Part shown: positions 3-41,463 of the stretch, piece by piece
Numbering within the stretch: position 1 is the stretch's first letter
Layout of the letters: each line of letters opens with the position of its first letter
DNA from: Candidatus Poribacteria bacterium
GTDB taxonomy: Bacteria > Abyssobacteria > SURF-5
Length of the DNA: 55,300 bases
Assembly: GCA_016215705.1 (NCBI GenBank)
Contig: JACRIR010000214.1
Span: 1 to 55,300 of the forward strand
Direction: 5' to 3'
The notes under the pieces: generated by a model
What the model was told of the DNA's origin: nothing
The model's input: only the letters and a program-made list of their open reading frames with translations
Database searches by the model: none
Program-made: the position numbers and the translations under genes

Positions 3-578
3 ACGAACTTCCGTCTGACCGTGAACACGAGCTTGAGCGACAACTCGTGGAGCGCCGTGACCGCGGCGTTCGGCAAAGGCACCGTGCATCCTGATTGCAT
101 CGGGACGCTGAGCTATGTGTATGCCAGCTACATGCTCATGAACAACAGCGAACTGGCAGGTGGCCTTGCCACGTATAAGCTCGTTGATGCTGCGTTGGCG
201 ATCAGCGCTGCGAACACCGACGGCTGGCGTGACCGGAACGTGAACCTGGCGTCCTTCGGGTTCACCGGTTCGGGCAACGCAAGAAGCAGCACCGTGAACA
301 GGTTGTCCACGAGCGTTGACAGGTTCCTCGTCACCGATATCAACACGATTCTGACCGGCTCAGAGTCCGGCTCGAGCGTGATACCGGTCATGTGGGATCA
401 GATTTCAACGAACATCAGCGAGTTCAGCCATGTTCCCGCTGGCCAGAACGTGCTGTTCATGGACGGACACGTCGAGTTCTATCGTTATGACAGAGCCTCG
501 ACAAAGTTCCCGGTGTCGCCTCTGTATGCAGCTATCAATGGCGGCGTCAACGACAAGGCGGTTCCGTATTGCCCGTAA
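3..578 (+). CDS. H-X9-DG prepilin-like protein, 3' part (5'-truncated by window edge)
   Basis: The reading frame is open from the first bases of the window, so the true start and the N-terminal prepilin methylation segment lie outside. The visible 190 or so residues end with a segment reading HVPAGQNVLFMDGHVEF, which matches the C-terminal H-X9-DG motif of DUF1559 / prepilin-processing-associated proteins (here the spacing from His to DG is ten). Family members are secreted type II/IV pseudopilin-like proteins, common in planctomycete-like and candidate-phylum genomes. It is followed by a strong terminator and lies next to pilB on the opposite strand, which fits a pilus or secretion role, but the substrate is unknown. 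Family confidence is good; function is inference. Confidence 0.75.
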   Translation, partial: TNFRLTVNTSLSDNSWSAVTAAFGKGTVHPDCIGTLSYVYASYMLMNNSELAGGLATYKLVDAALAISAANTDGWRDRNVNLASFGFTGSGNARSSTVNRLSTSVDRFLVTDINTILTGSESGSSVIPVMWDQISTNISEFSHVPAGQNVLFMDGHVEFYRYDRASTKFPVSPLYAAINGGVNDKAVPYCP

Positions 579-620
579 TTCCGTAATCGTATAGTTCTAT
601 TTCCCCATGCGCTTCACCGG

Positions 621-655
621 AGGGGGAAGACAAAATGTCTTCCCCCTCTTTTCTT
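621..655 (+). terminator. Rho-independent terminator of the H-X9-DG gene
   Basis: A perfect 12-bp stem (AGGGGGAAGACA at 621-632 with its complement at 636-647) closes a 3-base loop and is followed by a T-rich run. It sits 42 bases after the stop codon of the plus-strand gene and before the convergent pilB end. Confidence 0.9.
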
Positions 656-715
656 ATTTGATTCAGGACGCGTCGCATCTGTTCCGCCGCAACACACGCT
701 TTGCGAGGACCTTGC

Positions 716-742
716 GTCATTCTGAGCGAAGCGAAGAATCTC
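716..742 (+). repeat. Dispersed TCATTCTGAGCGAAGCGAAGAATC repeat
   Basis: This stretch contains TCATTCTGAGCGAAGCGA followed by AGAATC, a short palindrome-like sequence seen in intergenic spaces of many environmental bacteria. Related copies in this window lie at about 24481-24513 and, inverted, at about 48507-48532. Confidence 0.6.
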
Positions 743-814
743 CTGTTGCATATGTTCCGCCGGAGTGCGCGCCTTTTCGGAGCCGCTGGTGAGTCGCTTG
801 CACCGGGGGAATGC

Positions 815-2710
815 CTATAACACGGTCTTCTCGGCGGGCTGTCGATCCTGCTGACAATACGGGCAGAATCGCCAGTTCTTTTCGATTTTTTGGCCACAAG
901 ACGGGCATTTGTCTTTTAGCGCAAAACCACATGATGGGCAAGCCATGTACGACTGCTCGGTTCTCTCACCGCAGTTCGGGCAGATTCCCGAGGAAATCTC
1001 TTCTCCAACAACGACGCTCCAGATTTCAGTCAACGCTGTCACGCCGGATGAGACTTTTTCGGCGAAATCGGTCAACAGCGGCTTCATTCCGCTCACGAGC
1101 GCCAATCTGCGTAAAACAGATTCGCCTTCCCGCATTTCAATGGCTTTTTTCGCTTCTTCAGTGATCGCGAACAATTCGGCCACGGCGATTCGGCCGGAAA
1201 AACCTCTTTGATTGCACTGTGGACATCCCTTGCCGATCTGCCACGGAAGTCTCCGCGCTTCCGGGAAAATGCGTTCTACCTGGCGAATCTGGCTGGGTGA
1301 GGGTTCTAGGGGAATCAGGCAGTTCCTACAGAGTTTTCGTATGAGTCGCTGTGCGAGAACATAGAGGAGCGTGGAGCCAATGAGGAATGGCGGCATTCCC
1401 AGGTTGACAAGGCGAGTGACTGCAGAGGGGGCATCGTTTGTGTGAAGAGTACTAAGCACAAGATGGCCGGTCATTGCGGCGCGCAGAGCAATTTCGGCGG
1501 TTTCCGGGTCCCGTATCTCACCTACCATGATAACGTCAGGGTCTTGCCTGAGAATGGAGCGCAGCGCCGTGGGAAATGTAAGGCCGGTCTTTGTATTGAC
1601 TTGGACCTGAGTTATTTTGGCCAGATCATATTCAACGGGGTCCTCCACCGTGACTATGTTGACGGCGGGGGTTCTTATCTCGTGTAGTATGGCGTTGAGA
1701 GTTGTGCTTTTTCCTGAGCCCGTGGGGCCGGTTACCAATACCATACCCTGCTTGCGGGAATTGAAATTGCGCATCTGGTCCAATTGCGACGAATTGAAGC
1801 CAAGATCATCCAGCTTCACGTCGCTTTCTTTCCTGTCGAGAACCCGTATGACGACCTTCTCTCCGAATATCGAAGGGAGTGTGGATATGCGGAGATCATA
1901 ATAGCGCGAGCCTACCGAAATGCGTACTTTGCCGTCCTGGGGCACTCTCTTTTCCGCTATGTCCATGTCCGCCATGATCTTGATTCGGGACACAACCGGC
2001 CCGTGTATCCAGCGCGGCAGTTGGTGCATTTCATAAAGCAGGCCGTCGATTCTGTCGCGAACAATCAATGAGTCCGCTTGAGGCTCGACATGTATGTCGC
2101 TGGCCCGCTCCTGGATGGCCTCATGAATGACGATATTGACTATTTTTATGACAGGGGCCTGCTGGCTCTGAATCTTCAGATCAGTCGCGTTTTCCGACTG
2201 GTCGTTTTCCGGATCGGAGAGTTTCATCACGTGGATGAGCCCACCGAGTTCCGAGAAGGAATCGGATAAGTCCGTAATGGTTTCGCTGCTGTTGCATTTC
2301 TTGATGGCTTTCTCTATTTGTTCAATATCTGCCACAGAGGGCTTTATCTCACGCTTCGTGATCAGATTCAAATCGTCGATTGCCTGAAGGTTCAGCGGAT
2401 CGGCCATCGCAACGATCAATCCTCCGGCCTCCTGCCGGATGGGCAGACACCCATACTTGAGCGCCAGTTTCTCAGGGAACAGACTGACTGATTCCATATC
2501 GATCTCGGTCTCGTCAAGGTCCAAGAAAGGAATCTCCAACTGAAGCGCAAGCATCTTGAGGAGGTCCGTCTTGGAGACACGGTCACTCTCCACAAGAATC
2601 TCGCCGAGACGCTTCTTTGTCGACAGCCGTTGTGTCTCAAGCGCTACTTTCAGCTCTTTCTCCGTGATAAGGTTATTGCTGACGAGCAGGTCACCCAATC
2701 GAACTTGCAT
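815..2710 (-). CDS. pilB: Type IV pilus / type II secretion assembly ATPase PilB (GspE family) with C-terminal zinc ribbons
   Basis: This hexameric cytoplasmic ATPase powers pilus extension or pseudopilus assembly. An N-terminal MshEN-type domain (about residues 1-150) is followed by the GspE core: Walker A GPTGSGKS, Asp box around VTVEDPVEY, Walker B DVIMVGEIRD and His box GHLVLSTLHTND. The internal CxxC...CxxC metal site (CRNC and CPQC) typical of PilB/GspE is present. Unusually, about 50 further residues carry eight cysteines in four CxxC pairs (CPNC, CPSC, CPSC, CPYC), i.e. a double zinc ribbon. I chose ATG 2710 because GGAGG sits 10 bases upstream and the protein then begins MQVRLGDLL; a GTG 102 bases further upstream also keeps the frame open. 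The gene converges on the H-X9-DG gene; no clear promoter was found upstream. Confidence 0.92.
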   Translation of the reverse strand: MQVRLGDLLVSNNLITEKELKVALETQRLSTKKRLGEILVESDRVSKTDLLKMLALQLEIPFLDLDETEIDMESVSLFPEKLALKYGCLPIRQEAGGLIVAMADPLNLQAIDDLNLITKREIKPSVADIEQIEKAIKKCNSSETITDLSDSFSELGGLIHVMKLSDPENDQSENATDLKIQSQQAPVIKIVNIVIHEAIQERASDIHVEPQADSLIVRDRIDGLLYEMHQLPRWIHGPVVSRIKIMADMDIAEKRVPQDGKVRISVGSRYYDLRISTLPSIFGEKVVIRVLDRKESDVKLDDLGFNSSQLDQMRNFNSRKQGMVLVTGPTGSGKSTTLNAILHEIRTPAVNIVTVEDPVEYDLAKITQVQVNTKTGLTFPTALRSILRQDPDVIMVGEIRDPETAEIALRAAMTGHLVLSTLHTNDAPSAVTRLVNLGMPPFLIGSTLLYVLAQRLIRKLCRNCLIPLEPSPSQIRQVERIFPEARRLPWQIGKGCPQCNQRGFSGRIAVAELFAITEEAKKAIEMREGESVLRRLALVSGMKPLLTDFAEKVSSGVTALTEIWSVVVGEEISSGICPNCGERTEQSYMACPSCGFALKDKCPSCGQKIEKNWRFCPYCQQDRQPAEKTVL

Positions 2711-13265: not shown

Positions 13266-14711
13266 TCATTTGCCACTCGGCGCTGCCTCTTCAGGAAGAG
13301 CTTTTTCGCTCTCTTCACCCGCGGCAGGTTTCTGCGATTTCTCGTCGGGTCCTTCTTCTGAAGGAGGCTCCTCTTGTCCCTTTGCCATCTTCACGTTCTG
13401 CTCGAGTGTCTTGAAGATGTCGTACCCCTGCAACAATTCAACGGCCCTTTGCAGTTGCACGTCAGTCATGACGGGTTTTTCTTTGCTTTCTTGGTCGGGC
13501 TTGGATTCGGTTTCTCCGTCGGTCTTGGTCTGGCCCTTGATAACGAGTGGCGCTGTCATATCAAGACCGCCGAGCAGATGAACAAACTGCTCTTTGCTGA
13601 TCTTTACTTCGATGTCGGGAATAATGCCCACGCCGTCTATCGAGTGTCCGCCCGGCGTGAGGTATTTGGCTGTCGTCAAGCGCAAGGCGGAGCCGTCAGA
13701 GAGCGGAATTATGCTCTGAACCGAGCCCTTGCCGAAAGTCTTTTCCCCGAGGACGACGGCCCGGTGCCAATCCTTGAGGGCGCCCGCAACAATCTCGGAG
13801 GCGCTGGCGCTGCCCTGGTTCACAAGCACTACCATGGGCGTGCTGGGGTCTACCGACGGATTCTTTTTCGATTTAAAGCGCAGGTTCTGCTCGGTGTTGC
13901 GCGATTCGGTGTAAACTATCAGTTTACCTTTATCGAGGAACTCTTCCGAAACGTCGGCGGAGACATTAAGCAAACCACCCGGATTGTTGCGCATGTCGAG
14001 CACCAACGAGCGCATTCCCTGAGACTTGAGGTCGATGATCGCCTTGTGCAATTCACTGGCGGTTCGCTCGCTGAACTCGACGAGCCGGATATAACCGATA
14101 TTGCTCTCGAGCATTCTCGATTTTACACTGGGTATTTTAATGTCGTCGCGAGTCAGGGTGAATTCAAGTTCTTCCGGAACTTTGCCGTCGGTTTCATGAA
14201 GTCTGATTACGCTGACCTTTACCTGAGAGCCCTTCGGGCCGCGCAACTTCTTAACAGCTTCTTCAAGCACCAGCCCCTCCGTGCTCGCGCCGTCGATCTT
14301 CATTATCTTGTCACCGGCTTGTACGCCGGCCTTGAACGCAGGTGTATCCTCGATCGGCGAGACGACCGTGAGAACCTTATTCTCGTCGAGGCTTATGACG
14401 ATCCCCAGTCCTCCGAAATGGCCTTCCGTTTCAACTTTCAACTCCTTGTAAGTCTCCGGCTGCATGAACTGGCTGTGCGGGTCAAGCTTGTCGAGCATAC
14501 CCTTGAGTGCGCCGTATATCAGCGTCTGAGTCGGGACTTCTTGTACGTATTCGCTTTGCACTATGCTCAGGGCGTCGGAAAAGACCTCAAGGTCCTTGTA
14601 AGGCGAACCTGTTTGAGCCGCCACGTATCCCGAAAGGCCGTTGCCGATTATAAGGCCCAGGAACAAAACCGAAAGAAAGAAGAAAAGAAACTCATTCCGA
14701 TTGCGTCGCAT
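13266..14711 (-). CDS. ctpA: C-terminal processing protease, S41 family
   Basis: 481-residue periplasmic serine protease with an N-terminal signal-anchor (residues 8-30), a PDZ domain (about 95-170) and the S41 core. The catalytic dyad is Ser303 in GSASASE and Lys328 in EKTFGKGSVQ; the substrate-gating MRNNPGGLL segment is intact. The acidic, Pro/Glu-rich tail is low-complexity. ATG 14711 overlaps the end of the ftsX-envC gene by 20 bases. The order ftsE-ftsX-envC-ctpA is widespread in bacteria, where CtpA proteases often control cell-wall hydrolases, which fits a role with the adjacent FtsEX module. Confidence 0.95.
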   Translation of the reverse strand: MRRNRNEFLFFFLSVLFLGLIIGNGLSGYVAAQTGSPYKDLEVFSDALSIVQSEYVQEVPTQTLIYGALKGMLDKLDPHSQFMQPETYKELKVETEGHFGGLGIVISLDENKVLTVVSPIEDTPAFKAGVQAGDKIMKIDGASTEGLVLEEAVKKLRGPKGSQVKVSVIRLHETDGKVPEELEFTLTRDDIKIPSVKSRMLESNIGYIRLVEFSERTASELHKAIIDLKSQGMRSLVLDMRNNPGGLLNVSADVSEEFLDKGKLIVYTESRNTEQNLRFKSKKNPSVDPSTPMVVLVNQGSASASEIVAGALKDWHRAVVLGEKTFGKGSVQSIIPLSDGSALRLTTAKYLTPGGHSIDGVGIIPDIEVKISKEQFVHLLGGLDMTAPLVIKGQTKTDGETESKPDQESKEKPVMTDVQLQRAVELLQGYDIFKTLEQNVKMAKGQEEPPSEEGPDEKSQKPAAGEESEKALPEEAAPSGK

Positions 14712-16731
14712 TTATGCTCCTCCTTTGAAGCCAATCAATTGGGTCAACGGGCGTCCCGTTCTCCCGTATCTCAAAATACAGAAAAGGCCCTTTCAGCGAC
14801 CCGGTTTCTCCGATGAGCGCTATGGCCTGGCCTGCCCGCGCCGTGGCGCCTCTGCGGACCATGATTTCGGAACAGTGCGCATATACGCTGCTGTAACCGT
14901 CGCCGTGATCCATGATTACCAGTTTGCCGTAACCCTTGAACCAATCGCTGTAGACCACTACGGCGTCATGAATCGCACGAATTTCCGTGCCTGCCGGAGC
15001 CGTGATATCAATTCCGAGATGCCGCGTGAACGTGGGCGAGTCCGAATTCTTCATCCTGCCGAATGGAGCAGAAACCTCACCCTTCACCGGCCACGGCAAA
15101 AGCCCTTTCATTTCCCTGAAGGGCGCAGAACCTGCGAGAAGAGGCCGCTGAACTCCGCGTTGCGCCTCTATTAAGTCCTGCAGCTTGTGAGCCGAGGCCT
15201 CTAGGTCACTAATGGCGGCGACGTAGAGGGTCTTCTTTTCGCTGAGTCCTGCCAGCAGCGCCTCGCGCTGCTTCCTCTTTTCCTTTGACTGCTCAGCGCG
15301 AAGCCGCGCCGCCTCTGTATAAATTGTATCTAATTCGATGCGTTTATTCAAATTCTGCTGCTCCCGCAGGACCGCCGCGCGAAGCCCCCTGGCCTGCTCG
15401 AAGGCATCGGTCTCCTTCTTCGCAAGCCTTGAAACCATTTCACGCCGCCGCGTCAGGTCCGACTGGGGGATATCGCAGAGAATGACCTCTATGAGCGTTG
15501 GCTCACGGTAGTTGCAGAGAAGCCTCAGCCACCTTTCCAATTCTTGCCTGGATTGCGCATATGCGGACTCATGCCGTCCGAGCTCAGTCTGTATCCTCGC
15601 AGTTGCCGCCTTGTTCAATGCGACGCTGGTTTCGCCTGACCTGATTTCGCGCGAAAGAGAATCGAGTTTTCTGTCCGTCGCCTCGAGTTCGTCGACGAGC
15701 GCTCGTTCCTGCATCCCGATTTTTTCCCTCCCCGCGCGACTCTGTTCCAGCTCGAGTTCGAGTTCTCTCAGCTTTTGCTGATACCGGGCGACCTCCGCAT
15801 CGAGAGAGGGTTCCGTCTGCGCCAAGACGCTCCCCGAAACGATAATGAAGAGCGCGGCGGCGGCTGCGGTGACGGCCAGCGCGGCTCTGAATGAAAACCA
15901 GGCTGCAAGAATCGCTACCGCGGGGCCAACCGCAAATGCGAGCGCAAACACGCGAAGCGGCGATTCAATAGTACCGCCCGTCTTCATCGAAACGAGGGCG
16001 ACCGCGGCCACTAACGATGCCACGCCCACGGTTGACCCGGTCAGTCCTTGCGCCACGCTTTCGGCGGTAAGCATTCTTCTTAGAAATGTTGTGCTGGCGC
16101 CCAGCGTTCTAAGCGTCCTGACTTCGTTCTTGCGAGCGGTGGCGGCGAGGCCTGCTATATTAACCGTGATCACTCCAAAAACCAAAACCCAGAAGATGCT
16201 TGTCGCGACCGTGAAGCTGGCGACGTGGCTTCGGAATCGGAGGTATCTCTTGAGCAGCATTTCCTCGAACTTGACTTCGTCCACTCCGTTGATTGACGCC
16301 ACTTGCGAGGCCACTTGTTTAGCCACTGCGAGGTCGCGCTTATCCGGGGATAACTTGATGATAATCGACGCCGGCAGCACTTCGTCGAGGGGCGTTTCCT
16401 GCAAATCCAGCGAATCTCCCACATCGGAGAAAAGCTCTTCCCATGACATGCGAGCGCTCACCAGTCTGGCGTCGCTCACTTCGGGGATAGCCCGAACCTT
16501 CTCGATCGTCTGCTGCGCTTCGCTCTCTTTGAGATTGTGCGAGAGGAAGGCGACAAGCTCGACCCTCCGTTCCCATCGCTCCAACAGTGAGCTGATGTTG
16601 TGCTTGAGGAGCCCGAACACGCCGACGGCAAAGACGGAGACCGCAACACATCCCGTCATGGCCAGGCTGAGAGTGCGCTCGCGCCAGGAATTTCGGAGAC
16701 CTTCCTTTATTGCCAGCCGGTAGCTTTCCAT
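14692..16731 (-). CDS. ftsX: FtsX-EnvC fusion: cell-division permease joined to a degenerate LytM/M23 activator
   Basis: A single 679-residue frame joins two proteins that are normally separate. Residues 1-280 are FtsX: membrane segments near 21-42, 171-196, 226-249 and 258-279 with the large periplasmic loop between the first two. Residues 284-303 form a fifth hydrophobic segment ending SVLA-Q, which resembles a signal peptide with a possible signal-peptidase site after Ala304. Residues 305-530 are charged coiled coil as in EnvC/PcsB, and 545-672 a LytM (M23) domain. The first zinc motif HLGID (His571, Asp575) and His619 are kept, but the essential HxH is replaced by F-L-Y (650-652), as in the catalytically dead E. 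coli EnvC, so it is probably an amidase activator. An in-frame stop lies just before ATG 16731, excluding a longer start. Confidence 0.93.
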   Translation of the reverse strand: MESYRLAIKEGLRNSWRERTLSLAMTGCVAVSVFAVGVFGLLKHNISSLLERWERRVELVAFLSHNLKESEAQQTIEKVRAIPEVSDARLVSARMSWEELFSDVGDSLDLQETPLDEVLPASIIIKLSPDKRDLAVAKQVASQVASINGVDEVKFEEMLLKRYLRFRSHVASFTVATSIFWVLVFGVITVNIAGLAATARKNEVRTLRTLGASTTFLRRMLTAESVAQGLTGSTVGVASLVAAVALVSMKTGGTIESPLRVFALAFAVGPAVAILAAWFSFRAALAVTAAAAALFIIVSGSVLAQTEPSLDAEVARYQQKLRELELELEQSRAGREKIGMQERALVDELEATDRKLDSLSREIRSGETSVALNKAATARIQTELGRHESAYAQSRQELERWLRLLCNYREPTLIEVILCDIPQSDLTRRREMVSRLAKKETDAFEQARGLRAAVLREQQNLNKRIELDTIYTEAARLRAEQSKEKRKQREALLAGLSEKKTLYVAAISDLEASAHKLQDLIEAQRGVQRPLLAGSAPFREMKGLLPWPVKGEVSAPFGRMKNSDSPTFTRHLGIDITAPAGTEIRAIHDAVVVYSDWFKGYGKLVIMDHGDGYSSVYAHCSEIMVRRGATARAGQAIALIGETGSLKGPFLYFEIRENGTPVDPIDWLQRRSINATQSE

Positions 16732-16758: not shown

Positions 16759-17430
16759 TCACGCGGCGGTAGTCTTCGTCATGCGGCCAAGCGAGCTCCT
16801 GTCCAGCGCAATGACCCGCTTGCCCGATTGCCGCGCGAATTCAGCGTGGTGCGTTGCAATTACTACAGTGGAGCCGCGCAGGTTCGCGTTCTTGAACAAT
16901 TCCATCGCTTTCTCGATGGATTGCCGGTCAAGCCCTTCATACGGCTCATCTGCAAGCACGATTGCGGGCCTGCGCGCCAGAGCCCGGCAGATTTTGAGCA
17001 TTTGCCTCTCATTCTCAGAAACGCTGTTCGGGAACAAACTCGCCTTGCCGGGAAGGCCGAGTTCCCTCAGATAAACTATTGTTTCCTTTTTGGCGTCCGC
17101 CGAGCGCCAGCCCGCAAGTTCGAGTGAAAAGGCGATATTCTCGGCAAGGGTCCGGCGCGGCAGAAGCGCGTCATCCGGAAATATCACTCCAAGTCGGCGC
17201 AAATACTCAGGCACTCTATGGCGTGAAATCCTCGTAACATCGATTCCATCTACTATTACACGTCCGCCGGCCGGGGACTGCTGAAGGGAGAGAATCCGAA
17301 GCAAGGAGGTCTTCCCTGACCCTGCCTGCCCGCACACGAAAACAAACTCACCTTTTTCGATGTGCAGATTCAGGCCGTCGATCAACTCGTGGTCTCCGGT
17401 TCGCAGGCACAGGTCAAGCGTGATGATCAC
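16759..17430 (-). CDS. ftsE: FtsE-like ABC ATPase with atypical Q-loop and signature motif
   Basis: 223-residue ABC ATPase that should pair with the FtsX part of the next gene, 27 bases away, to drive septal cell-wall hydrolysis. Walker A GQAGSGKT (34-41), Walker B AIVLADEP (156-163) and the H-loop THH (193-195) are intact. The Q-loop, VIFQD in FtsE of other bacteria, reads VIFPDD, so the glutamine is lost, and the LSGGEQQ signature reads VSENERQ. These changes could lower or alter ATP hydrolysis. The GTG start at 17430 overlaps the TGA of the transketolase gene (GTGA), so translation is coupled. Confidence 0.88.
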   Translation of the reverse strand: MIITLDLCLRTGDHELIDGLNLHIEKGEFVFVCGQAGSGKTSLLRILSLQQSPAGGRVIVDGIDVTRISRHRVPEYLRRLGVIFPDDALLPRRTLAENIAFSLELAGWRSADAKKETIVYLRELGLPGKASLFPNSVSENERQMLKICRALARRPAIVLADEPYEGLDRQSIEKAMELFKNANLRGSTVVIATHHAEFARQSGKRVIALDRSSLGRMTKTTAA

Positions 17431-37288: not shown

Positions 37289-40200
37289 TTAATTTCCAGA
37301 GGACTCGCAGTCAACGTATTCGTCCGATCCGATATCCGGTAGCAGTTGCCACACTGCCACGGGCCTCGGATCGCCGTCTACGTCATCGTCCGGGGCTCCT
37401 ACGAGCGTTCCCATGTCGATACATGAAGAGAAGACATCTAAATGGTAGTCTCCCTCGGTCCATGTCGCCCCTGCCCAAAAGCCCGGCTGGACGAAAGACG
37501 GATTCACGTTGGATAGGTTAGTCGAATCGTAAGTGTATGAGCAGGTTGTGCAAGCCGGATCCTTGAATATTGAACTGCTCCCGTACTCGAAATCGCTGTA
37601 GCTGATCGCGGCAGATGATTGTGCTCCCACTATTGACATTGAAGGCCCATAGGCCGCAATATTGCTCCACATGATGCAGTTTTTTTCGTTTATCTGCGAA
37701 GAGAAGCACGTTATTCCGCCGCCATGGCCCGTGGCCAAGTTTCCGACGATGGTGCTGTTTAGAAGTGAAGGGGTGGCAGGTGCTGTGTTGGAGTAGGAGT
37801 AATACAGTCCCCCACCATATGTAGCCACATTTCCGCTGATATCGCAGTTGGTCAGAGACGAAGGCGGTGTGTACGAGTAGTAAAGTCCACCGCCAACGTA
37901 TCCGGAATAGTTTCTACTGAAAGTGCATTTTGTGATTGTGGGAGACCCTGCATATACTTCACCGCCACCCCCGGCAACGGATGCGGAGTTGTCACTGACG
38001 GTGCAGTTGCTGATATTCGGCGCAGGAGTCCCGCAACAGTAAATACCGCCGGCATACGTAGCCTCGTTTCCGGTAACGACACAGTTACTGATTGCTGGAG
38101 ATGCGACCTGGCTAAATATGCCGCCACCCGCTCCACTGCCGCCAGTTGTGGAGTTTTGGCTGATGGCGCAGTTGATGATGGTTGGAGAAGGCGTATTCAC
38201 GCAGTAGATTCCGCCTCCAAGTGTGGCCGTGTTATCAGTGATAACACAATTGGTGATTGTTGAGGACGTACTTTGAGCATATATCCCCCCGCCATTGTTA
38301 GTGGTACCATTATCAGTGATGACACAAGTACTGATTGTTGGAGAGGCGATTTGGGTTGAAGATGAGCTCAGGATATAAATACCACCGCCGTTGTTGGTGG
38401 CCGTGTTCCCTGTGATGACACAATTACTAATTGTTGGTGATGTTGGAGACGTGATTTCTGCTGGAGACGCGATACGTATACCAGCTCCAGTGGCATAGGA
38501 ACCATTCGTAATCGTGAATCCATCCACGACCGTATCTTGCGTTTCGCCGTTATTGAATTTGAATCCTCTGCAGTTTGCAGTGTTCTGGCAATCGATGACG
38601 CACTTCTTAGGCCCGTGTTCCGAGAGGAGCGCTATGCTTTTTCCTCCGAAATTGTCAATGTTCGTATTGAACGGGCCAGTGTAAGGTTCATTTTCGGCGC
38701 TGTCATGGACGATTATTATGTCGCCGTTGCCGCAGGCTGCAATTGCCTCTTTAATGGCAGTATAATCGGAGGGCACATATTTTGCCCCATGATATTTAGG
38801 AACCCAATGAACGCTCCCACCGGCGGTGGCAACATAGAGGCGCTCGCGCCAATAGGGGTCAGAGGTTATTTGAATGATTTCCGGTATGGGTAGGCCGTCC
38901 TCTCTGTGGGTCCACGTGCCTCCTCTGTCAGTCGACTCGTACAGCCCGTTGATGCTGCCTGCAAAGACTATCCTGCTTACGAACGGGTCAATAAGAATAT
39001 CTGTGAAGATGACATAGTCGAAGTTGACATCGACGGGCTGAAATGACTTCCAAATATGCGGGTGAGGCGGATTCTCCTCATCTACTTCATAGACAAAGAT
39101 CCCTCTGACTGTTGCGGCATAGAGGATATCGTTGGCACTATCATAGTCTAGCGCCATGACGGCTGGATCGATTTCGTCGGGAAGATTATCGATTCCAGAT
39201 GGAATCTCGAGTTTGTCCCATCCTTGTCCGGCAGTGAATTTGTAGACCCCGCCTTTTTCTTCGGCTCTGGGCACCCAATTCTTGACAGGCCGGGGTACTA
39301 TTTCTGTTTCGTCGGGCCATATCCATGATTTGCCGCAGGATGTGCGTTGTGCAGCAAAAAGCGGCTCACCGTTTGCTTCCAGAACAAGATCGGTTATGCT
39401 GATGACATCAGTAAGCGAGAGTGGCGGGTCTGTATAAATCTCAATCGGGGACAGGCCCGTATTAAGCGGCGTCCACGTCTCACCGTCATCGCACATGACT
39501 AGGATTCCATCTTCTTGACACGCGGCGTATATCTTGGATGGAGCCGCGGGGCTTGTTACCACCCTCCACACACCTTTGTCCAGGAGAATCTGCTCGCCTG
39601 GGCAACACCAGTTACCACATTCCTGCTCGGGTTGGCTGCCCACGTCGGTCCGATATATGCCACGATTGGTACTGCCATTCTCACCCCATGCTGGGTTCCC
39701 GGTGCTATAGAAAACTTGAGTCGGGTTGTTGAAGTCCTGCGCAAAAGACCATGTGTAGAGACCACTTGCGGCCGCTTTTTGTTTTTCCCATTCGGTAGAA
39801 TCGCCATCCTCATTTCGAAATATTCCGGCCTCGGCGCCAGCATAGATGACAGTGCGGTCATTGGGCGAATTTGGAAGAGCATAAACGGCATTTACGAGCA
39901 AAGAATGGATGCCATTGATGATCGGATCAAATTGCAAGTGCAACTGGTCATTTATTTGACCATCGATGCTTTTTTCGACACAACTAGCGCCACCGCTGGT
40001 TATGTAAGAGAACTTCGACCGTGTAATTGCACCTAATCCAGGGATGGGATCACTGGTGCTTTCAGAAGAATCGAATGTCTGTCTGAAGATAGGAGTAAAA
40101 TCCCACACCCAATTAGCGCCGCCGTTGAAGGTGGTGTATAGCCCGGCGCCGCACGCCTGTTGGACCAAGGGTTGGAAAAATGGCTGTTCTGGCGAGTTTG

Positions 40201-41128
40201 ATATGTCATTTGCCCTTATAGTGATCAAACCCGGGTTGTGGGGATCCACTCCTATAAAGTAAACCAAAGGAAAGGCTGAAGATCCACACAGATATAGCAT
40301 GTTTTGCAGTTGCTGTGGCGGCTGAATCTGGGTCCAACTTACGCCGGAATTCGTGCTTTCATAAACCCACGACGATTCCGTGCCCAGGAAGAGATGATCG
40401 GCGTCCATCGGGTCATGGGCAAGAAAGGTTGCGCGCAATGCCTCCTGCGGGAGATTGCCGTTGTGCGAGGCCCAACCGCCTTGATCGAGCCGGAACACGC
40501 CGCCTCCGTAAACCATCGCCCACAGTTGGTTCCCCTCACCTTTTGAGAGGAAGACGCTCACTGGTTGGCACGGTTGTTGGGGGACAGTGAAACCTAGCCC
40601 GTCGGCAGCGGGCTGCCACGTTGCTCCTCCGTTGTTGCTTGAGTATATCCAGGCGGGAGCAGGAGTAATGTCAGTTTCGGTGATGCCAGCGTACAGAACC
40701 CCGTCCGACCTGATTTCTAGGGAGGCAATCTTCACATATTCGTTTTCGGAAACTGCCGGCAAGCCGTTGCTGCAACATACCCATTCCTGGCCGCCATTAA
40801 TGCTTTTCCATATTCCATGTTTTTCCGTTCCCACAAATATCGCCCGCGGACTGTCATTAGTAAATACCAATGATGACACCAAGCAGTCCGTCGCAAATAT
40901 TCGTGTCCATTCTTGGTCAGAATTGGTCCATTTGTGGATGCCTTGGAGCCCGTACACATATAGTATCTGGTTGTTATCCGGGTCTATTCTCAAGTCGAAA
41001 CGGTCACCGCCGTCCGGGCCGATAGACCCGGATTGTGTTTGCGCAGAACTGCCTGCAGGAATCAATGACAATGCTAGAAACGTCGCTGCCACTATGCAGA
41101 CCATGGATAGCACGTTGAGTCGCCGCAT
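37289..41128 (-). CDS. Secreted beta-propeller plus right-handed beta-helix protein (choice-of-anchor Q type)
   Basis: 1279 residues with a clear signal peptide (cleavage expected after SSA, residue 29). The first 750 residues contain repeated Asp-box/BNR motifs (SINGGQEW, SSNNGGATW, STNSGVSW, TTFNGGANW, STDRGGTW), typical of sortilin/sialidase-like propellers. From about residue 840 comes a beta-helix of repeats of the form ISNCVITGNTATNNGGGIY, and the end (CIDMGT...DVDGDPR...PDIGSDEY) matches the choice-of-anchor Q domain. Probably a cell-surface or exported glycan-binding or adhesive protein. ATG 41128 follows GGAGGAGG. Confidence 0.88.
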   Translation of the reverse strand: MRRLNVLSMVCIVAATFLALSLIPAGSSAQTQSGSIGPDGGDRFDLRIDPDNNQILYVYGLQGIHKWTNSDQEWTRIFATDCLVSSLVFTNDSPRAIFVGTEKHGIWKSINGGQEWVCCSNGLPAVSENEYVKIASLEIRSDGVLYAGITETDITPAPAWIYSSNNGGATWQPAADGLGFTVPQQPCQPVSVFLSKGEGNQLWAMVYGGGVFRLDQGGWASHNGNLPQEALRATFLAHDPMDADHLFLGTESSWVYESTNSGVSWTQIQPPQQLQNMLYLCGSSAFPLVYFIGVDPHNPGLITIRANDISNSPEQPFFQPLVQQACGAGLYTTFNGGANWVWDFTPIFRQTFDSSESTSDPIPGLGAITRSKFSYITSGGASCVEKSIDGQINDQLHLQFDPIINGIHSLLVNAVYALPNSPNDRTVIYAGAEAGIFRNEDGDSTEWEKQKAAASGLYTWSFAQDFNNPTQVFYSTGNPAWGENGSTNRGIYRTDVGSQPEQECGNWCCPGEQILLDKGVWRVVTSPAAPSKIYAACQEDGILVMCDDGETWTPLNTGLSPIEIYTDPPLSLTDVISITDLVLEANGEPLFAAQRTSCGKSWIWPDETEIVPRPVKNWVPRAEEKGGVYKFTAGQGWDKLEIPSGIDNLPDEIDPAVMALDYDSANDILYAATVRGIFVYEVDEENPPHPHIWKSFQPVDVNFDYVIFTDILIDPFVSRIVFAGSINGLYESTDRGGTWTHREDGLPIPEIIQITSDPYWRERLYVATAGGSVHWVPKYHGAKYVPSDYTAIKEAIAACGNGDIIIVHDSAENEPYTGPFNTNIDNFGGKSIALLSEHGPKKCVIDCQNTANCRGFKFNNGETQDTVVDGFTITNGSYATGAGIRIASPAEITSPTSPTISNCVITGNTATNNGGGIYILSSSSTQIASPTISTCVITDNGTTNNGGGIYAQSTSSTITNCVITDNTATLGGGIYCVNTPSPTIINCAISQNSTTGGSGAGGGIFSQVASPAISNCVVTGNEATYAGGIYCCGTPAPNISNCTVSDNSASVAGGGGEVYAGSPTITKCTFSRNYSGYVGGGLYYSYTPPSSLTNCDISGNVATYGGGLYYSYSNTAPATPSLLNSTIVGNLATGHGGGITCFSSQINEKNCIMWSNIAAYGPSMSIVGAQSSAAISYSDFEYGSSSIFKDPACTTCSYTYDSTNLSNVNPSFVQPGFWAGATWTEGDYHLDVFSSCIDMGTLVGAPDDDVDGDPRPVAVWQLLPDIGSDEYVDCESSGN

Positions 41129-41463
41129 ATGATCCTCCTCCTGCCCGGTGACGTTTTGGTTTATGCAAAGACAATACTGTTTAGTCAAATATCGAAAAAA
41201 CTAATTTATCATATCTCTATGGCAATGTCAAGCACTATTTTTTCAGATAAAGCCCGCAGATGAGGAACGCTCAGTTCAGATATGATCTCTCAGCCTTGTT
41301 TTGCGACTTCTTGACTTGTTGCTCAATAAAGGTATCCTCAAGCAAGATTTACCGGAAGCCTGACCAGATGATACTCAGTGCTTCCGCTCAGATGCGCTGC
41401 ATCAGTCGGACACTGGCAATCTCTATGCGCGCATTCTAGTTTTCAGCGCTCAACATGAGGCGT
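41129..41463. other. Spacer with the promoter of the large secreted protein
   Basis: Apart from the minus-strand promoter at 41203-41231, the stretch shows no gene or repeat. Its right end runs into the reverse transcriptase remnant. Confidence 0.45.
41203..41231 (-). promoter_or_regulatory. Promoter of the large secreted protein
   Basis: Minus-strand TTGACA, 17-base spacer, TAAATT; 75 bases before the ATG. Confidence 0.55.

Follow-up and report, generated by a model that had tools for sequence, protein, structure and literature searches.

A single-chain FtsX-EnvC fusion in Candidatus Abyssobacteria and its possible cleavage by signal peptidase I

We found that, in Candidatus Abyssobacteria, FtsX and its periplasmic partner EnvC are joined in one protein encoded by a single gene. 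The gene lies on the minus strand of the window, the whole 55,300-nucleotide stretch of DNA analysed here, where a 679-codon frame without an internal stop begins with an ATG at 16731 and ends at 14692. The initial annotation had described one uninterrupted FtsX-EnvC frame at this place without naming its strand, and searches with Pfam and NCBIfam confirm it. The fusion represents a new variant form of FtsEX-EnvC, for which a polyprotein mechanism is plausible and testable. The gene, its parts, and its neighbours are listed below.

14692..16731, minus strand: ftsX::envC single-chain fusion gene, 679 aa; one open frame with Pfam FtsX_ECD, FtsX, and Peptidase_M23, and the same frame in genomes G001 and G002
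15883..16731, minus strand: FtsX part, residues 1-283 (TM1, periplasmic domain, TM2-TM4, and tail S-F-R-x-x-L), from Pfam, NCBIfam, hydropathy, and alignment of the tail to the C-termini of separate FtsX proteins
16273..16563, minus strand: FtsX_ECD, residues 57-153 (PF18075, 1.1e-10), the domain to which the EnvC hairpin binds in known systems
15820..15882, minus strand: segment 5, residues 284-304, former EnvC signal peptide in an internal position, with a predicted cut after Ala304 (VLA↓Q), from hydropathy, a position equal to that of separate EnvC signal peptides, and conservation
15517..15804, minus strand: EnvC coiled-coil helix I, residues 310-405, from matches to EnvC chains 8i6o, 8tzk, and 6tpi and a helix in the AF2 model (pLDDT about 75-85)
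15466..15516, minus strand: coiled-coil hinge, residues 406-422, a loop between two long helices in the AF2 model
15157..15465, minus strand: EnvC coiled-coil helix II together with the counterpart of the restraining arm, residues 423-525, from structure-chain matches and the AF2 model
14719..15111, minus strand: degenerate LytM (M23) domain, residues 541-671 (PF01551, 1.2e-30; EnvC LytM structures 4bh5 and 8c0j)
14776..14784, minus strand: F-L-Y at the catalytic H-x-H site, residues 650-652, from an alignment of 72 LytM sequences
16759..17430, minus strand: ftsE, the cognate ATPase gene, 27 bases upstream of the fusion (TIGR02673 FtsE, 2.7e-54, below the curated cut-off; same order in G001 and G002)
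17008..17022, minus strand: FtsE signature VSENE in place of LSGGE, from an alignment that included G001, G002, and about 45 FtsE-type sequences of other genomes
13266..14711, minus strand: S41/PDZ C-terminal processing protease, whose gene shares 20 bases with the 3' end of the fusion (Pfam; same neighbour in G001, G002, and L009)

The fusion gene and its distribution

Both halves of the protein were recognized independently. All three Pfam matches exceeded their gathering scores: FtsX_ECD, the FtsX permease (PF02687, residues 178-285, 9.7e-9), and Peptidase_M23 (residues 570-664). The two FtsX domains were above cut-off in all three species examined below. Among NCBI models, FtsX_Gneg (TIGR00439) covered residues 7-273 (7.8e-32) and EnvC PRK11637 covered residues 436-670 (6.3e-31). 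The TIGR00439 score was 110.6 bits, where the curated cut-off is 255. Because these scores are far from chance yet under equivalog cut-offs, we consider the two halves divergent members of their families. Among solved structures, the first 265 residues matched FtsX, and the C-terminal 360 matched full-length EnvC of FtsEX-EnvC complexes (8i6o, 8tzk, and 6tpi), with chains 8i6o_E and 8tzk_E covered over their full length (2.9e-29 and 3.3e-28).

Hydropathy resolved TM1, TM2, TM3, and TM4 as well as a fifth segment, and TM4 was a distinct peak in both sister proteins. A canonical FtsX has four spans and a cytoplasmic C-terminus, but here segment 5 and about 375 more residues come after. The remainder has the EnvC order of a coiled-coil hairpin followed by LytM, although its signal-like segment is internal rather than at the N-terminus of a separate secreted protein. 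The coiled coil and EnvC-type LytM domain proposed initially are borne out by the structure matches and the Peptidase_M23 score. In an AF2 model built from two sequences, mean pLDDT was 50, and only the helices at residues 310-405 and 423-525 were fairly confident. By analogy with solved complexes (PMC7668044, PMC11627006), the hinge between them probably corresponds to the tip of EnvC that FtsX domains hold between them. The reported replacement of H-x-H is also correct: F650-L651-Y652 occupies the site in the window, with F-L-Y and Y-L-Y (the latter in G001) in the other species, while H571, D575, and H619 are retained in the window domain. Given these substitutions in the catalytic motif, the LytM part appears to be a regulator rather than an enzyme.

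The unbroken frame was present in all three genomes of the phylum that the analysis covered, each a different species: the window genome, G001 (668 aa, 47% identical to the window protein), and G002 (680 aa, 56% identical). The initial annotation had asked whether the architecture recurs in a clade and had named a frameshift, or split genes in relatives, as findings that would overturn it; the architecture recurs, and we saw neither a frameshift nor split genes. Although the window genome is a fragmented draft of 270 contigs, the idea that an assembly or sequencing error deleted a stop and created an apparent fusion has a negligible chance of being right and was rejected, because the same layout recurs in two sister species as divergent as these. 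Each genome carried a single FtsX of the fusion type. The other matches were LytM paralogues, and a second full-length EnvC was not found in any of the three among the matches listed. In a scan of GTDB 220 contigs that rested on two short patterns, only SURF_17 (Candidatus Abyssobacteria; G002; QZKI01000111.1) matched over the full length. SURF_17 and SURF_5 both come from the deep subsurface at the former Homestake mine (PMC6121073).

Beyond this phylum, we surveyed about 390 genomes (386 counted) from across Bacteria, representing >260 families. Among the matches listed, no unbroken FtsX-EnvC match over residues 1-677 occurred outside the three Ca. Abyssobacteria genomes, in a survey from which a fusion with very divergent halves could escape. 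At loci with long open frames, an FtsX profile and an EnvC profile were run separately against all frames of the DNA. Long frames in G173, G176, G103, G139, G219, G262, G029, G391, and others resolved into separate genes that either occupy different frames or are divided by a stop, and joined matches in G059, G355, G361, G307, G258, and G245 were read-through of stops. Further searching in the phyla of G355, G361, and G109 found no fused gene. The phylum of G059 is represented by one genome, and a second domain-wide sample centred on it mostly repeated the first and added nothing new. Searches of viral contigs found no relative, and in the open-access literature (most subscription papers fell outside the search) we found no earlier report of an FtsX-EnvC fusion. 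The statement that FtsX and EnvC are elsewhere separate agrees with the 55 other genomes (52 + 3) in which we inspected adjacent ftsX and envC, all of which had a stop codon between the two. On present evidence, the fusion is restricted to one small phylum.

Several of the separate pairs share one frame and are kept apart by just one stop plus a few codons (L042, L044, L048, L052, L058, L071, L075, L081, L082, L099, and L100). Judging from their sequences, one or a few mutations could fuse such pairs in several other phyla, and same-frame neighbours separated by one stop would be an obvious route to a stop-loss fusion.

The junction and the fate of the chain

The junction has the anatomy of a stop-loss fusion: FtsX is complete to its basic tail and then runs straight into the former EnvC signal peptide. 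Separate FtsX proteins end in a tail like GS..S[VL]xRFL(K/R), and equivalents are kept in the fusions as SFRAAL, SVRNAL, and ISRKAL (the pattern S-x-R-x-x-L matches the C-termini of separate FtsX). The tail is followed, with no new start, by a hydrophobic core of 13-16 residues, a c-region containing G, S, or P, and Ala at -1 in all three species. Segment 5 ends in VLA↓Q, GFA↓Q, or LRA↓N, and the conserved LxxEVxRY of the coil comes right after. Separate EnvC proteins have signal peptides that align with segment 5, which argues that segment 5 is EnvC's old signal peptide and that the arginine of the FtsX tail now occupies the position of its basic n-region. Hydropathy and this alignment support the embedded, signal-peptide-like segment noted initially, and the proposed topology, in which the extra segment would return the chain to the periplasm, is workable. 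Segment 5 was also the least conserved of the hydrophobic segments, with 24-33% identity compared to 32-67% for TM1-TM4, and in this respect it looks like a disposable signal.

We consider it probable, though by a modest measure, that the fusion is a 1:1 FtsX-EnvC polyprotein precursor, which signal peptidase I would cleave at Ala304↓Gln305, a predicted A-x-A-like site deduced from three sequences. Signal peptidase I (Peptidase_S26) genes were present in all three genomes. The FtsX half would insert with four spans, and R282 of its tail would provide the signal's n-region. Segment 5 would then form a tight TM4-TM5 hairpin that delivers the EnvC part to the periplasm, where signal peptidase I would cleave after Ala304, with segment 5 remaining on FtsX. 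The EnvC hairpin, free but still held locally, could then be gripped with its hinge down between two periplasmic domains of FtsX, the arrangement of known FtsEX-EnvC. A conformational change in FtsEX would raise the restraining arm, allowing the inactive LytM domain to activate an AMIN-Amidase_3 amidase and split the septal wall. Amidase_3 genes occur in all three genomes as candidate amidases, and one in the window genome has the AMIN + Amidase_3 arrangement. EnvC-part binding to FtsX and amidase activation are assigned to the fusion here by analogy.

The main competitor, which we think rather unlikely, is that the fusion stays whole as a permanently tethered FtsX-EnvC machine, with segment 5 serving as a fifth transmembrane helix. 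The chain has no stop and no conserved internal start, segment 5 is sufficiently hydrophobic to reside in the membrane, and the fusion is fixed in three species. However, segment 5 keeps a signal-peptide c-region with Ala at -1 and is poorly conserved. An uncut chain also implies a 2:2 ratio of FtsX to EnvC, compared to one EnvC per FtsX dimer in known complexes (PMC7668044, PMC11627006). In the E. coli crystal structure, two periplasmic domains of FtsX grip one EnvC (2:1; PMC7668044), and P. aeruginosa FtsEX-EnvC is a 2:2:1 complex in which the hinge of the hairpin points down and touches FtsX TM1-TM3 (PMC11627006). In these complexes, the LytM domain lies well away from the membrane, close to the wall (PMC7668044, PMC11627006).

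Geometry adds a further difficulty for the tether. Helix I spans about 96 residues and, with 1.5 A for each residue, would be about 140 A long; its hinge end must sit at the membrane. Since only about six residues link segment 5 to helix I, an uncut chain would pin the start of this helix, the end far from the hinge, at the membrane as well. Combined with hinge-down binding, this would require tens of helix I residues to unfold. On the other hand, the uncut chain could reach if helix I were unfolded in its N-terminal stretch. Still, cleavage by signal peptidase I would remove both the pinning of the far end and the stoichiometry problem. Of the two fates named in the initial annotation, we therefore favour cleavage over the tether on the strength of the EnvC signal-peptide alignment, the Ala that every one of the three species has at -1, and the poor fit of an uncut chain to the hinge-down 2:2:1 structures.

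Two other readings are much weaker. The whole chain may be cut by another protease, such as the neighbouring S41/PDZ processing protease, whose gene touches or overlaps that of the fusion in each of the three species. This we regard as very improbable: the same neighbour adjoins separate ftsX and envC in L009 and so is not specific to the fusion, and S41 enzymes usually trim from C-termini. Slimmer again is the prospect that EnvC is additionally made alone from an internal start in the 3' end of the ftsX part. Both G002 (codon 278) and G001 (codon 274) have an in-frame GTG ahead of segment 5, but these positions are not conserved, no candidate has a Shine-Dalgarno-like sequence, and the window genome (G000) lacks any start between codon 261 and segment 5. 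A conserved in-frame start with a Shine-Dalgarno sequence was thus not found at the junction in the three species.

FtsE and the neighbouring genes

The ftsE gene lies immediately upstream of the fusion in all three species, and its product departs from the usual sequence in each, a feature absent from the initial annotation. The signature motif is [VI]SENE instead of LSGGE, and the D-loop reads DEPYEGLD instead of DEPTGNLD. Walker A, the catalytic Glu, and the H-loop are kept, while the Q-loop Gln is replaced by Pro in the window species. By contrast, nearly all of the roughly 45 FtsE-type sequences from other genomes have LS[GA]GE, with few exceptions, such as LSSSE in L084. Since all three species share the change, we read it as an altered motif rather than as decay, and FtsE in this lineage is possibly an altered ATPase. 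In pneumococcal FtsE, ATP is pinned across the dimer by the LSGGE motif (PMC7468199), and cell separation in E. coli requires FtsE ATPase activity (PMC7668044). Given the non-canonical signature, the ATP-driven step may differ from that of E. coli, which counts against the mechanism proposed above.

A stronger version of this idea is that the whole phylum uses an uncut FtsX-activator chain together with an FtsE whose ATP cycle is changed or abolished, so that wall splitting is controlled by a built-in tether rather than by EnvC recruitment. We consider this combination improbable.

Unusual FtsE-like ATPases were also seen elsewhere. In L076 and L078, those beside separate ftsX-envC have Glu in the Q-loop and lack the H-loop histidine (TTR), which suggests from sequence that FtsE degeneration occurs in other lineages too. 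In the unrelated genome L009, the S41/PDZ protease gene directly follows envC (49-1425, minus strand), and the pairing of envC with this protease may be functional. Elsewhere in the window, a 1299-codon frame (37289-41188, minus strand) has a secretion-like N-terminus, a Sortilin-Vps10-like match below cut-off (1.4e-7), and one Chlam_PMP repeat; its product is a putative large surface or secreted protein.

Comparison with known systems

A natural covalent link between FtsX and EnvC fixes both their partnership and their dose. Two questions thereby become testable: the number of EnvC molecules that work with each FtsX dimer, and whether clamping and release require a free EnvC. Cleavage of the chain would make it a bacterial polyprotein of the division machinery, one whose internal signal peptide begins with the C-terminal arginine of FtsX. 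With an altered FtsE signature alongside, one may also ask whether FtsEX in this lineage runs on the normal ATP cycle at all.

The fusion resembles FtsEX-EnvC of E. coli, P. aeruginosa, and V. cholerae in combining FtsX_ECD and the permease with an EnvC coiled-coil hairpin and degenerate LytM domain, in having ftsE directly upstream, and in the Amidase_3 amidases of the genome. However, those are separate proteins that bind 2:1, whereas the fusion is one chain, and the Ca. Abyssobacteria FtsE has an altered signature motif. The separate ftsX-envC pairs of the 55 inspected genomes share the gene order, and some have an adjacent S41 protease (L009), but a stop always intervenes and EnvC has its own start and signal peptide.

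A parallel to the predicted processing is the FbcH polyprotein of Bradyrhizobium, in which cytochrome b is joined to c1 and the chain is cut at an internal signal sequence. Both proteins place a multi-span membrane protein before an internal signal peptide and a periplasmic partner in one chain. FbcH belongs to a respiratory complex and its cleavage has been demonstrated, whereas cleavage of the fusion is predicted only. FtsEX-RipC and FtsEX-PcsB likewise pair FtsX with a coiled-coil periplasmic partner under trans-membrane control (PMC11627006, PMC5061712). Their partners, however, are separate proteins and are themselves hydrolases (NlpC/P60 in RipC, PMC11627006), in contrast to the inactive LytM domain built into the Ca. 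Abyssobacteria chain.
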